Origin: Geomonas sp. RF6 | GTDB taxonomy: Bacteria; Desulfobacterota; Desulfuromonadia; Geobacterales; Geobacteraceae | Length of the DNA stretch: 64,000 bases | NCBI RefSeq assembly: GCF_021044625.1 | Contig: NZ_CP087999.1 | Location: 1,195,001 to 1,259,000, forward strand | Reading direction: 5' to 3' | In this document: in pieces, positions 18,040-58,791 of the stretch | Layout of the letters: each line of letters opens with the position of its first letter | Position numbering within the stretch: position 1 is the first letter of the stretch | Position numbers and translations under genes: made by a program | The notes under the pieces: model-generated | What the model saw: only the letters and a program-made list of their open reading frames with translations | Database searches by the model: none | Told to the model about the DNA's origin: nothing

Positions 18040-19014
18040 TCAGCCAAAGTGATCGAACCCCTTCCCGGAAACCGCGTACGGCTCCCCCCCCGGCCCCACT
18101 AGCTCTATACCCTTCCCTTCAACAATCTCCCCGATCACCGTGCAGGAAAGCCCCACTCCCTCCACAATCGCCAGCACCTCTCTCTCATGCGCAGACGGAG
18201 CGGTAAAGAGGAGCTCGTAGTCCTCGCCGCCGCTTAGTGCCAGGGAATACGGATCGTCGCCGCAGAAAGCGCGGTATTCCCCCGAAAGGGGGAGCCGGGA
18301 GAGCTCGAGGCGCGCCCCCACCGCGGAGAGGTCGCAGATATGCCCGAGGTCGGCGAGTACGCCGTCGCTCACGTCTATCATGGCGCTCACCACTCCACCC
18401 TCGGCAAGGGCCACCCCAGCTTCCACCCGCGGCGTCGGATCGAGCTGGCGCTGCACCAGTCTTCCCGACCTCTCACCTCTTCTGAGCTGGGCGAGTCCTG
18501 CCGCCGCGTCCCCGACAGTCCCCGTCACAAAGACGAGGTCCCCTGCCGCCGCTCCGCTTCTCTTCAGTATCCGCCCGGGAATCTGCTCCCCGAGAGCTGT
18601 GATGGAAATGGCGACCCCCCCCTTGCTGGAGCAGGTGTCCCCCCCAACCAGCACCGCGCCGTAGCGCTCGGCCATCTCCAGCATGCCGAATACGAAGGGG
18701 TCCATAAATTCGAGGGAAGCTTCTTTCGGAAGGGCGATGCCGAGCAGGAACTGGCGCGGGACTCCCCCCATGGAGGCGACGTCGGAGAGGTTGACGGCGA
18801 GGGATTTCCTCCCCAAGGTGCGGGGGTCGGTAAAGGAGAGGTCGAAGTGCACCCCCTCCAGGAGCATGTCCGAGGTGATGAGGGTGACGGTACCGGGGGT
18901 CGGGGCGAGCCCCGCGCAGTCATCCCCGATCCCCAAAAGAACGCCAGGGCCCGTGTGGGCCCTGGCAGCGATGCGGTCGATCAGTCCGAATTCCCCGAGA
19001 TCCTTCACCTTCAT
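18040..19014 (-). CDS. thiL: Thiamine-monophosphate kinase
   Basis: A 324-residue enzyme that phosphorylates thiamine monophosphate to the active diphosphate. It is recognised by the N-terminal [10 protein letters not shown], the metal-binding GIGDDCAGL, the [12 protein letters not shown] segment, [24 protein letters not shown] and the late [11 protein letters not shown]. The length is normal. Its ATG overlaps the lon stop by four bases, so it is translated after Lon on one mRNA. That linkage of a vitamin gene to a heat-shock operon is unusual. Confidence 0.95.
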
Positions 19015-21464
19015 CCTTTCGCTCCCGCAGTGGGGCTTTTGCGGGTCGGCGGAAGCGGGCGCTGGCGCGGCGACTTCGCCTTCGCCGGAGCCGGCGTCTT
19101 CGGCTCGCTCGGCGGCGGGTACTGCTCCAGGGCGACGGCGAGGACCTGGTCGATGCTGGAGGCACTGACGATCTTCACCTTCCTGAGGATCGTCTTCGGC
19201 ACATCCTCGAGGTCCTTCACGTTCTCCTCCGGGATGACGATGGTGCGGATCCCCAGACGCGCGGCCGCGAGGATCTTCTCCTTCAGCCCGCCGATGGGGA
19301 GGACCTTGCCGCGCAAGGTGATCTCGCCGGTCATCGCCACCTCCTTGCGCACCGGGACCTTCGTGAGGGCCGAGACGAGCGCTGTGGCCATGGTGATCCC
19401 CGCAGACGGGCCGTCTTTAGGGATGGCGCCTGCCGGGACGTGGACGTGGATGTCGAGCGAGCTGAAGGTGTCCTCAGGGAGCTTCAGCTCCGCGGCGCGC
19501 GAGCGGATGTAGGAAAGTGCCGCCTGCACGGACTCCTTCATGACATCGCCGAGCTGCCCGGTGAGGGTGAGCCCCCCTTTCCCCTTCATGGTACTCGCCT
19601 CCACGAAGAGGACTTCGCCGCCGACAGGGGTCCAGGCAAGACCGGTGACGACGCCGATCTCGTTTTTCTCCATCTCCTTCTCGCGCAGGAACTTCGGGGG
19701 GCCGAGGTACTTCGCCAGGTTACCGGCTGTGATGATGAACTTCTTCTCGGACCCCTCCGCGACCTTGCGGGCGACCTTGCGGCAGACGGTGCCGATCTCG
19801 CGCTCAAGGTTTCGAAGCCCCGCCTCCCGGGTGTACTTGGAGATGATGGCGCGCAGCGCCTCCTCCGAGAAGGTGATGATATCCTCCGTGATGCCGTTCT
19901 CCTTCGCCTGCCTCGGCACGAGGTAGCGCTTGGAGATCTCCAGCTTTTCCTCTTCGGTGTAGCCGGAGAGGGAGATCACCTCCATCCTGTCCCGCAGCGG
20001 CCCCGGCACCGTGTCGATCTGGTTCGCCGTGGCGATGAACATGACGTTTGCCAAGGAGAAGGGGAGATTGATGTAGTGGTCCGAGAAGCTGTTGTTCTGC
20101 TCCGGATCGAGAACCTCCAGAAGGGCGGACGAGGGGTCGCCGCGGAAATCGGAGCCGAGCTTGTCCAGCTCGTCCAGCATGAAGACGGGGTTGTTCGTCC
20201 CCGCCTGCTTGATCCCCTGGATGATCCGTCCGGGGAGCGCGCCGACATAGGTGCGCCGGTGCCCCCTGATCTCCGCCTCGTCGCGCACACCGCCAAGGGA
20301 GATGCGCACGAACTTGCGTCCCATGGCGCGGGCGATGGACTTCCCGAGGGAGGTCTTGCCGACCCCCGGAGGGCCGACGAAGCAGAGGATCGGACCCTTC
20401 ATCTTCTTCTTCAGCTTGCGCACCGCGAGAAACTCGAGGATGCGCTCCTTTATCTTGTCGAGGTAGTAGTGGTCCTCGTCCAGGATCTCCTTCGCCCTCT
20501 TCAGCTCCAGCGCGTCCTTGCTCGCCTTGCTCCAGGGGATCTCCACCAGCCAGTCGAGATAGGTGCGCAGCATCCCCGCCTCCGCGGCGTCCGGGTGCAT
20601 CTGCTCCAGGCGCCCCAGCTGCTTGAAGGCCTCCTTCTCCACGTTCGGGGGCATCTTCGCCCCCTCGATCCCTTTTCTCAGCTCCGCCATCTCCTCGCTT
20701 CTGGCGTCGGTCTCGCCGAGCTCCTGCTGGATGGCGCGCAGCTGCTCGCGCAGATAGTATTCCCGCTGGCTCTTCCCCATCTCCTCCTTCGCGGCGGACT
20801 GGATGCGGGCCTGCATGTTCAGGAGCTCGCTCTCCTTGTTGAGGAAGTCGTGCACCCTCTTCAGGCGCTCGAGGGGATTGGTCATCTCCAGGAGGGACTG
20901 CGCCTCATCGACCTTCAGCCCGATGTTGCTGGCGACGAGGTCGGCGAGGCTGCCGGGCTCCTGCATGTTCTCCACGATCACCATGACCTCCGGAGAAACT
21001 GCCTTCCCGAGGGCCACGATCTTTGCCAGCTCCTCCTTCACCGTCCTGATGAGCGCCTCCGCCTCGATGGTGTTCTCGGCGGCTGCCGGCTCGATGACGC
21101 GGTCGACCCGCACGGAGTAGAAAGGCTTCTCCTCCAGGTACTCGGCGACGCGCCCCTTCGTTAGCCCCTGCACCAGGATCTTCACCCGCCCGTCGGGGAG
21201 CTTCAGCATGCGCATGATCATCGCCACGGTGCCGACGCGGTAGATCGAGTCGGGGGTCGGGTCCTCCTCCCCCACCTCCTTCTGGGTGGCGAGGAAGATC
21301 ATCCTGTCCTTGGCCAGCGCATAGTCGACGGCGTTTATCGACATCTCCCTCCCCACGAAAAGGGGAAGGATCATGTAGGGATAGACAACCACGTCCCGTA
21401 CCGGGAGGAGCGGCAGAACATCCGGTATGCTCAGTTCTTCGGTTTCCTGCCTGTTTTCCGCCAT
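19011..21464 (-). CDS. lon: ATP-dependent protease Lon
   Basis: An 817-residue AAA+ serine protease that degrades damaged and regulatory proteins. Domains in order: the Lon N-terminal substrate domain ([21 protein letters not shown]), a coiled-coil linker, an AAA+ module with Walker [10 protein letters not shown] near residue 360, and a protease domain with catalytic Ser in KDGPSAG (near 687) and Lys in GGLKEK (near 729). About 40 extra residues at the C terminus are Pro/Lys/Ala-rich. The ATG at 21464 has AAGGAG upstream. A longer frame runs through hsp20 and is spurious. It lies 11 bases after hsp20 and overlaps thiL. Confidence 0.97.
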
Positions 21465-21475
21465 GTTACATCTCC

Positions 21476-21913
21476 TTACTTGATGGGAATCTCCCGGATG
21501 TGCGTCTTCTTGCTCTTGGCCCAGGGGAAGGCAACGACCAGAAGCCCCTTTGCCATAGTCGCGTTCACGTTGTCGACATCCGCCGCGGGTGAGATCTCGA
21601 CAGCCTTGCAGAAGCGCCCGTAGCGGCGCTCCAGGCAGATGTAGTTCACCCCCGGCTGCGCCTCCTGTCGCTTCATCCCCTCGATGACGAGGGTGGAGCA
21701 GCAGATGCTCAGGGAGATGTCCTTCGGGGCGCACCCCGGAAGTTCCACCTCCACGACGAAGGAGTCAGGGGTCTCATAGACGTCGACCAACGGCGGCTCC
21801 TGCTCCGAGAATCCTTCCTTCCCCTCCAGGCTCGAGAGGTACTGAAAGATCTCGTCCATCTGCTGGCGAAATAGACTCAGCCACTCCAACGGCTCCTTCG
21901 GAATTACCGCCAT
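21476..21913 (-). CDS. Small heat-shock protein, Hsp20/alpha-crystallin family
   Basis: A 145-residue holdase chaperone. The alpha-crystallin domain spans about residues 40-130 ([21 protein letters not shown] to [16 protein letters not shown]). The consensus GLL is present and the usual [14 protein letters not shown] strand is intact. I take the ATG at 21913, with GAGGGG five bases upstream. It is the first gene of hsp20-lon-thiL, so chaperone, protease and ThiL share one transcript. Two cysteines (ICCS) inside the domain are uncommon and might be redox active. Confidence 0.92.
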
Positions 21914-53493: not shown

Positions 53494-54363
53494 TTAGGCC
53501 CCCTGCGCCACCACAAGTGGGGTCAGGAGACGTTTCATCTTTTTCAGTGCCCCTTCCTCGATCTGCCGGACACGTTCTCTCGATATGGAGAAGTGGTCGG
53601 CGATCTCCTGCAGCGTCATGGGGGTATCGGAGCTCACCCTGTTCTCGATGACGTAGCGCTCCTTCTCGTTCAGCCCCTGAAGGGCGGCCGCCACGCTCTG
53701 CTCCAGAAGAGCCACGTCCTGGCGCTCGGCCAGCATCTCCTCCTGGTTTTGCCGCTGGTCCGGGAGGGTCTCGAGGAAAGTCCCCGCCTCGCCGTCGAAC
53801 ATCTCCAGGTCGAGGGAAAGCTCCCCTTTCAGCCGCTGGTCCATCTCCTGCGCCTCGCCGTCCTTCACATCGAGGGAGAGCGCCGCAGCATGAAGGTCTT
53901 CCTCGCCGGTCATGCTCCGGATCGCCTGCTTCGCCTGGTTCAGCTTGAAGAAGAGCTTGCGCTGTGCCTGGGTGGTGCCGATCTTCAGGAGGCTCCAGGC
54001 GGACATGACGTAGTTCTGGATGTACGCCCTGATCCACCAGACGGCATAGGAGACGAGCCGCACCCCTTTGGCCGGATCGAACTTGCGCACGGCCATCATG
54101 AGGCCGATGTTCCCCTCCTGGATGAGGTCGAGCATCTTCAGCCCGTAGGAACGGTACTCACCGGCGATCTTCACCACGAAGCGCAGGTTCGAGGTGATGA
54201 GGGTATGCGCCGCCTCCAGATCCCCTTCGTTGCGGAACCGTTCCGCCAGGGTCGTCTCCTCCTCCGCCGAGAGCAACGGAAACCGGTTGATCTCCGCCAG
54301 ATAGAGGGTGAGATTATCGACAGGGACCGGCATCGAGTAGTTAAGGACTGCTGCTTCTCTCAT
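53494..54363 (-). CDS. rpoH: Heat-shock sigma factor RpoH (sigma-32)
   Basis: A 289-residue group 3 sigma factor. Region 2 (DLIQEGNIGLMMAVRKFDPAKGVRLVSYAVWWIRAYIQ) and region 4 (MTLQEIADHFSISRERVRQIEEGALKKM) are intact. The RpoH box (QRKLFFKLNQ, about residues 130-139) separates it from RpoD and RpoS. I choose the ATG at 54363 with GGGAG nine bases upstream; the frame extends to 54447 but covers the CIRCE operator. Expected targets include the Hsp20-Lon and ClpB genes in this window. Transcription is probably repressed by HrcA through the CIRCE site. Confidence 0.93.
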   Translation of the reverse strand: MREAAVLNYSMPVPVDNLTLYLAEINRFPLLSAEEETTLAERFRNEGDLEAAHTLITSNLRFVVKIAGEYRSYGLKMLDLIQEGNIGLMMAVRKFDPAKGVRLVSYAVWWIRAYIQNYVMSAWSLLKIGTTQAQRKLFFKLNQAKQAIRSMTGEEDLHAAALSLDVKDGEAQEMDQRLKGELSLDLEMFDGEAGTFLETLPDQRQNQEEMLAERQDVALLEQSVAAALQGLNEKERYVIENRVSSDTPMTLQEIADHFSISRERVRQIEEGALKKMKRLLTPLVVAQGA

Positions 54364-54390
54364 ACAAGTCATCTCCCGCTTTCTGGAACT

Positions 54391-54417
54391 TTGGCACTCT
54401 TTTCTGCCGAGTGCTAA
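54391..54417 (-). promoter_or_regulatory. CIRCE operator (HrcA site) at rpoH
   Basis: On the minus strand it reads TTAGCACTC, nine bases, GAGTGCCAA. This is the CIRCE consensus TTAGCACTC-N9-GAGTGCTAA with a single mismatch. It begins one base after the -10 box of the rpoH promoter and ends 27 bases before the ATG, so HrcA binding would block initiation. Confidence 0.9.
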
Positions 54418-54418
54418 T

Positions 54419-54447
54419 AATATAACAAAGGGGTCCCCAAAAATCAA
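54419..54447 (-). promoter_or_regulatory. rpoH promoter
   Basis: On the minus strand, TTGATT (54447-54442) and TATATT (54424-54419) are 17 bases apart, immediately before the CIRCE site. Confidence 0.7.
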
Positions 54448-54574: not shown

Positions 54575-55648
54575 ATGGAGATTCAGGTACTGCCACTTAG
54601 TGAAGCCGACAAGAAGCCGAAGTTCACCGACGAGACGAATCTCGTTTTTGGCCGGACCTTTACCGACCGCATGCTCCTTATCGAATGGAAAGCAGGCACA
54701 GGGTGGGGCGACGCCAGGATAAAGAAGTACGAGCCGTTCGTCCTCGAGCCCGCGGCGCTCGTCTTTCACTATGCGCAGGAGATCTTCGAAGGGCTGAAGG
54801 CGTACCGCTGGGAGGATGGCTCGATCGCACTGTTCCGTCCCGAGATGAACGCCCGCCGCTTCAACCACTCCGCCGACAGGCTGTGCATGCCGGAGATGCC
54901 GGAGGAGCTCTTCCTGAAGGGGATCGAGCAGCTGGTCTCTCTCGAGCGCGACTGGGTGCCGGGCGCCGTTGGCACCTCCCTGTACATCCGCCCCGCCATG
55001 ATCGCGGTGGAGCCGGTCGTCGGCGTGAAGCCTTCCGACCACTACTACTTCTTCGTCATACTCTCCCCGGTCGGCGCCTACTACCCGAAAGGGTTCAAGC
55101 CGGTGCGCATCATGGTGGAGGACGAGTACGTCCGCGCCGCTCCCGGCGGCACCGGTGAGGCCAAAACGGGGGGCAACTACGCCAGCTCGCTGAAGGCGGG
55201 GCTGAAGGCGAAGAAGAAGGGATTCGACCAGGTGCTCTGGCTGGATGGCGTGGAGAAGCGCTATGTCGAGGAAGTCGGCGCCATGAACATGTTCTTTGCC
55301 TACGGCAACAAGGTGGTCACCGCCCCGATCGGCGGCACGATCCTCAACGGCGTCACCAGGGACTCCGTCTTGCAGCTTTCCCGCTCCCTCGGCTTCGAGG
55401 TGGAGGAGCGCAAGATCGACATCCACGACCTCATGAGGGACATCGAAAGCGGAAAGGTCACCGAGGCTTTCGGCAGCGGCACCGCCGCGGTCATCACCCC
55501 GGTGGGGGAACTCTGCTACAAGGACGACTGTCTGGAAATCGGTGGCGGCGGAGTCGGGGCGCTTACTCAAAAACTGTACGACACCCTCACCGGTATTCAG
55601 TGGGGGAAGGTAGCGGACACCTTCGGATGGATCAAAAAGATCAGCTAG
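54575..55648 (+). CDS. ilvE: Branched-chain amino acid aminotransferase
   Basis: A 357-residue fold-type IV PLP enzyme for the last step of Leu, Ile and Val synthesis. PLP-lysine is K207 in GGNYASSLKAG, preceded by family segments HYAQEIFEGLKAYR, and RYVEEVGAMNMFFAY follows. The long type, with the DDTLEIG-like end, is typical. A 22-base overlap with the following small gene (its start lies in the end of ilvE) suggests coupling. The ATG at 54575 follows a weak ribosome-binding site. Confidence 0.94.
   Translation: MEIQVLPLSEADKKPKFTDETNLVFGRTFTDRMLLIEWKAGTGWGDARIKKYEPFVLEPAALVFHYAQEIFEGLKAYRWEDGSIALFRPEMNARRFNHSADRLCMPEMPEELFLKGIEQLVSLERDWVPGAVGTSLYIRPAMIAVEPVVGVKPSDHYYFFVILSPVGAYYPKGFKPVRIMVEDEYVRAAPGGTGEAKTGGNYASSLKAGLKAKKKGFDQVLWLDGVEKRYVEEVGAMNMFFAYGNKVVTAPIGGTILNGVTRDSVLQLSRSLGFEVEERKIDIHDLMRDIESGKVTEAFGSGTAAVITPVGELCYKDDCLEIGGGGVGALTQKLYDTLTGIQWGKVADTFGWIKKIS

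Positions 55649-56196: not shown

Positions 56197-58791
<2,595 letters not shown>

Follow-up and report, generated by a model that had tools for sequence, protein, structure and literature searches.

Introduction

Control of the bacterial heat-shock response is usually described as either repressor-based, relying on HrcA and its operator CIRCE, or sigma-factor-based, relying on RpoH. HrcA needs GroEL for activity and is inactive once GroEL is occupied by unfolded protein. In Bacillus subtilis, the class I regulon comprises hrcA-grpE-dnaK and groESL, which are preceded by the CIRCE consensus TTAGCACTC-N9-GAGTGCTAA. Escherichia coli has no hrcA and transcribes rpoH from several promoters, one of which is sigma-E dependent. 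RpoH of Geobacter sulfurreducens was reportedly the subject of an experimental study by Ueki and Lovley in 2007 (cited in PMC2725144), and Permina and Gelfand are said to have treated the heat-shock regulons of beta-, gamma- and epsilon-proteobacteria in 2003.

The closest described system is that of G. sulfurreducens, for which a perfect CIRCE at position -51 of rpoH appears in Table 8 and in the text of Rodionov et al. 2004 (PMC545781), in addition to CIRCE elements at hrcA-grpE-dnaK-dnaJ and groESL. No CIRCE is listed there at rpoH of G. metallireducens or of Desulfuromonas species. A full-text literature search, with the specialist papers of 2003 and 2007 outside its scope, returned HrcA control of rpoH elsewhere only in Rodionov et al. 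2004. Thus, HrcA control of rpoH is a prediction already made in 2004 for a relative, and Geomonas sp. RF6, analysed here, adds a member.

Results and discussion

A CIRCE element adjoins the rpoH promoter of Geomonas sp. RF6

We analysed a stretch of 64,000 nt from Geomonas sp. RF6 (contig NZ_CP087999.1; order Geobacterales, hereafter the order), which we refer to as the window. The following features surround the start of rpoH:

54447-54442, minus strand: -35 box TTGATT, read from the sequence; first bases of the conserved TTGATTTTT motif
54424-54419, minus strand: -10 box TATATT, read from the sequence; follows the -35 box after a 17-base spacer
54417-54391, minus strand: predicted CIRCE operator TTAGCACTC-GGCAGAAAA-GAGTGCCAA (the middle part is the N9 spacer), from a pattern scan; probable HrcA site
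53494..54363, minus strand: rpoH, heat-shock sigma factor of 289 aa (NCBIfam TIGR02392, 345 bits versus a cut-off of 323.1)
54575..55648, plus strand: branched-chain amino acid aminotransferase, divergent neighbour (PRK13357, 508 bits versus a cut-off of 307)

A single base (54418) lies between CIRCE and the -10 box of this sigma-70-type promoter. The operator agrees with the TTAGCACTC-N9-GAGTGCTAA consensus at 17 of 18 positions and has the correct 9-base spacer, the sole mismatch being a T to C exchange in the right arm. It starts 54 bases and ends 27 bases upstream of the rpoH start codon (ATG, 54363-54361; use of an alternative in-frame ATG, at 54372, would lengthen the protein by three residues) and spans approximately -5 to +21 of the predicted transcript. 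Since the aminotransferase gene starts 158 bases from the operator, it is not an obvious CIRCE target. Scanning of the 64 kb with up to three mismatches yielded only this one CIRCE, against 0.01 expected from dinucleotide shuffles, and the combination TTGATTTTT-N14-TATATT likewise occurs once in the window and in none of 100 shuffles. These data confirm that the CIRCE at rpoH is real: the preliminary description, which had placed a CIRCE with one mismatch within one base of a TTGATT-17-TATATT promoter and had recognised no second CIRCE in the window, was right in coordinates, spacing and mismatch count as well as in the uniqueness of the site.

The predicted HrcA regulon comprises four CIRCE sites

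The closed genome of 5.26 Mb was searched for CIRCE by pattern matching with up to three mismatches, using the reversed pattern as control. Exactly four sites were obtained, as compared to none for the control, and the genome has a single intact copy of hrcA, which scores 230 bits with PF01628 (cut-off 22.2); the proposed genome-wide search for hrcA and CIRCE could have revealed an absent repressor, and found one hrcA instead. The four sites are:

CIRCE at hrcA-grpE: perfect; downstream genes confirmed by Pfam
CIRCE at the first groESL operon: perfect; downstream genes confirmed by Pfam
CIRCE at the second groESL operon: one mismatch; downstream genes confirmed by Pfam
CIRCE at rpoH: one mismatch; the fourth site of the genome

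Pfam confirmation covered hrcA, GrpE and the two GroES-GroEL pairs; dnaK lies beyond the stretch examined. As there are only four sites and all of them are located at chaperone genes or rpoH, the latter appears as part of a minimal, clean HrcA regulon. Operator, gene and the partner operons hrcA-grpE-dnaK-dnaJ and groESL are alike in G. sulfurreducens, and the distance to the gene is similar (-51 versus 54 bases before the ATG). However, the G. sulfurreducens operator is perfect, whereas Geomonas sp. RF6 has one mismatch and two CIRCE-bearing groESL operons. Compared to B. subtilis, with which it has the consensus and the targets hrcA-grpE-dnaK and groESL in common, the Geomonas regulon adds the gene for a heat-shock sigma factor that is absent from B. 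subtilis.

CIRCE at rpoH is conserved nearly throughout the order

Upstream regions of rpoH were taken from genomes of the order with a clear RpoH match, giving 119 upstreams from 105 genomes; seven genomes without a strong RpoH match were left out of CIRCE scoring. CIRCE with up to three mismatches is present in 118 of the 119 upstreams, 31 times in perfect form, and the lone exception belongs to a third rpoH copy (G100:C57). Every genome with an inspected rpoH (105/105) carries the element, and both copies do so where the gene is duplicated. In 107 of the 118 upstreams the element follows the -10 box at a distance of 0-2 bases, and 16 of the 18 consensus positions hardly vary, whereas the spacer is unconstrained. 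In control searches of 551-base regions, the best match of the reversed pattern had 6-9 mismatches in 148 of 149 cases and 4 in the remaining one, and permuted consensus patterns mostly gave 6-9 mismatches. The relatives are phylogenetically linked, so that these counts are not independent of one another. Of 112 genomes of the order, 111 have the repressor gene hrcA. As compared to the listing of 2004, CIRCE at rpoH now extends nearly throughout the order.

Two rpoH genes are present in G007, G017, G057, G063, G077-G080, G089, G097, G099 and G102, and three in G100. The rpoH upstreams are near-identical across families in G007, G063 and G102, which suggests that rpoH was transferred between families together with its operator. 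G040, a single-contig genome of 4.3 Mb from the same family as Geomonas sp. RF6, lacks a strong RpoH match (the best has E 3.9e-25) despite carrying hrcA and three perfect CIRCE sites; here, rpoH may be lost, broken, or located outside the sequence searched.

Beyond the order, CIRCE at rpoH accompanies hrcA

CIRCE at rpoH also occurs in other Desulfuromonadales-type genomes. In samples that lean to the RpoH proteins most like the query and hence provide no census, the element was detected in 12 of 46 upstreams from Desulfobacterota outside the order, in all 50 from Burkholderiales and, for the class Gammaproteobacteria as defined by GTDB, in 42 of 50. Mismatch counts outside the order are bimodal, that is three or fewer, or six or more. 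Among the sampled Gammaproteobacteria, 40 of the 42 genomes that carry CIRCE at rpoH also encode hrcA, as compared to one of the eight that lack the element (Fisher p 3e-6, with genomes taken as independent of phylogeny). G306 and G322 have the element but no hrcA match, their assemblies being possibly incomplete, and G344 has hrcA but an rpoH without CIRCE. Among Desulfobacterota outside the order, hrcA accompanies the element in 12 of 12 genomes and is also present in 11 of the 18 without it, one of which (G409) offers only 110 bases of upstream sequence. Thus, hrcA nearly always accompanies CIRCE at rpoH, but outside Gammaproteobacteria presence of hrcA does not guarantee the site. On a tree of 99 RpoH proteins, whose bootstrap is not settled, CIRCE presence needs 5 changes versus 16.8 in shuffles, indicating that the element is inherited in clades.

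One operator accompanies two predicted promoter classes

Geobacterales have a sigma-70-like rpoH promoter: TTGA is found at -35 in 104 of 118 upstreams and GAAC in two, and the -10 box TATATT is succeeded by the operator. In contrast, a sigma-E-like GGAACTT box precedes rpoH in the sampled Burkholderiales and other Gammaproteobacteria (L185-L264, L294-L313); E. coli rpoH, too, is known to have a sigma-E promoter. Among the 92 CIRCE-positive upstreams of these two groups, the distance from GAAC to CIRCE is 15 or 16 bases in 59 and lies within 11-16 bases in 65, and 49 match the sigma-E promoter pattern [GT]GAAC-N17-19-TCNNA. Judged by sequence, which also defines the promoter class, the -10 element of the sigma-E-like promoter would fall inside CIRCE in Gammaproteobacteria, an arrangement that sets the sampled members apart from hrcA-less E. 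coli.

The rpoH operator varies mainly on its promoter side

Over the 118 rpoH operators of the order, the left arm accumulates 87 mismatches as compared to 18 in the right arm. One family (f4) has TTAGCAGTC as the left arm at 59 of its 65 sites. The exact pattern TTAGCAGTC-N9-GAGTGCTAA has 52 matches in 48 genomes, 51 of them at rpoH operators, and the only site of this type away from an inspected rpoH is G111:C30:71798-71824. None of 20 hrcA operators of f4 genomes (L334-L353) contains TTAGCAGTC, and the CAC core is kept in 19 of them. In Geomonas and its near relatives, the rpoH operator has TTAGCGCTC, and the same genomes contain two perfect CIRCE sites elsewhere. Because TTAGCAGTC and TTAGCGCTC are confined to rpoH operators by lineage and mismatches are in excess in the left arm, at least two lineages must have altered the rpoH operator on the side facing the promoter and retained the altered form. 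These changes could represent tuning towards weaker repression, but might just as well reflect a constraint imposed by the initiation region. In any case, since the rpoH operator is imperfect in Geomonas sp. RF6 and many relatives, repression may be weak.

HrcA as a predicted repressor of rpoH, and competing explanations

We consider it very likely that the CIRCE at rpoH is a genuine HrcA operator, through which HrcA, together with GroEL, represses rpoH until heat releases repression. HrcA control of rpoH is supported by the single hrcA gene, the four-site regulon, the near-universal presence of the site in the order and the loss of the site with loss of hrcA in Gammaproteobacteria; the steps of binding, GroEL titration and repression are modelled on HrcA-GroE of B. 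subtilis. At normal temperature, HrcA folded by GroEL would bind CIRCE one base past the rpoH -10 box and, occupying about -5 to +21, would block initiation or promoter escape by RNA polymerase. Upon heat shock, unfolded proteins would titrate GroEL and HrcA would lose its activity, allowing rpoH to be transcribed along with groESL and hrcA-grpE-dnaK. HrcA would in this way provide an added transcriptional, chaperone-sensing input into RpoH synthesis, and the HrcA system probably controls the heat-shock sigma factor system in Geomonas sp. RF6.

Effects of CIRCE on transcript stability have been reported from other bacteria, and mRNA structure is known to control rpoH in E. coli. Located where the transcript is expected to begin, the repeat might act mainly as an mRNA hairpin affecting rpoH stability or translation, with HrcA binding playing a minor role. 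However, transcription starting ~7 bases past the -10 box would leave most of the left arm untranscribed, and the TTAGCAGTC left arm of family f4 breaks a stem pair that no right-arm change compensates in 59 of 65 sites. Presence of CIRCE moreover tracks hrcA. The hairpin reading, which we regard as improbable, was rejected because the predicted leader folds no better than shuffled sequences (z 0.95).

We see very little chance that the site is a relic, that is an inherited CIRCE no longer relevant for rpoH expression. The single mismatch in Geomonas sp. RF6, the one to three mismatches in many relatives and the uneven load of the two arms (87 versus 18 over 118 sites) would fit such decay, but the recurrent left-arm variants are common to clades and look more like tuning. 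Moreover, a relic would hardly persist in all 105 genomes whose rpoH was inspected, as well as in both copies of duplicated genes, with 16 of 18 positions nearly invariant next to a free spacer, and be lost where hrcA is lost. Finally, a chance palindrome, in favour of which nothing was counted, is practically out of the question, given that 0.01 sites would be expected in the window and that the element recurs in the same place relative to the promoter across the order, and is refuted by this conservation.

If HrcA indeed represses rpoH, the repressor-based and the sigma-factor-based systems would form one cascade with GroEL as shared sensor. The distribution of the site suggests that this wiring is common and old, in which case the E. 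coli picture, with RpoH controlled mainly at the post-transcriptional level, would be atypical of Proteobacteria that keep hrcA. With a slight preference, we favour the view that hrcA-bearing Gammaproteobacteria (including the former Betaproteobacteria) and Desulfuromonadia-type bacteria repress rpoH through HrcA by default, on two promoter classes, and that model organisms lacking hrcA, such as E. coli, are exceptions that lost this layer together with hrcA. The breadth of the arrangement, the sigma-E-like promoter beneath CIRCE in Gammaproteobacteria and the lineage-specific half-site changes confined to rpoH had no match in the literature searched; part of the breadth may already be known.

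Promoters of other heat-shock genes

The preliminary description had further assumed that RpoH drives ClpB, Lon and Hsp20 encoded in the window. The former two are encoded there:

56197-58791: ClpB
19011-21734: Lon

Motif and Pfam searches, confined to selected reading frames of the window, did not reveal Hsp20. The sigma-32 consensus CTTGAAA-N11-16-CCCCAT, which is of the E. coli type and may not fit RpoH of Geomonas sp. RF6, has no exact match anywhere in the window, and under relaxed scoring no candidate at clpB, lon, hrcA, groESL or rpoH exceeded background. That is, the best matches upstream of clpB and lon reach 10 and 9 (or 8) of 13 positions, and among 400 random windows 274 reach 9-11 and 56 reach 10-11. 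The clpB upstream region contains a good sigma-70-type promoter (TTGACA/TATATT). Of the proposed two-tier hierarchy, the upper tier, HrcA control of rpoH, is backed by genome comparison, whereas control of ClpB, Lon and Hsp20 by RpoH is not supported by the sequence; it may still be true, as the E. coli-type consensus may misfit this RpoH.

A CTTGATTTTT-like -35 region is common to the rpoH promoter (54419-54447) and both groESL promoters (L007 and L008, upstream of groES) and may be a promoter trait that HrcA targets share; the hrcA promoter differs from these in having TTGACA at -35.
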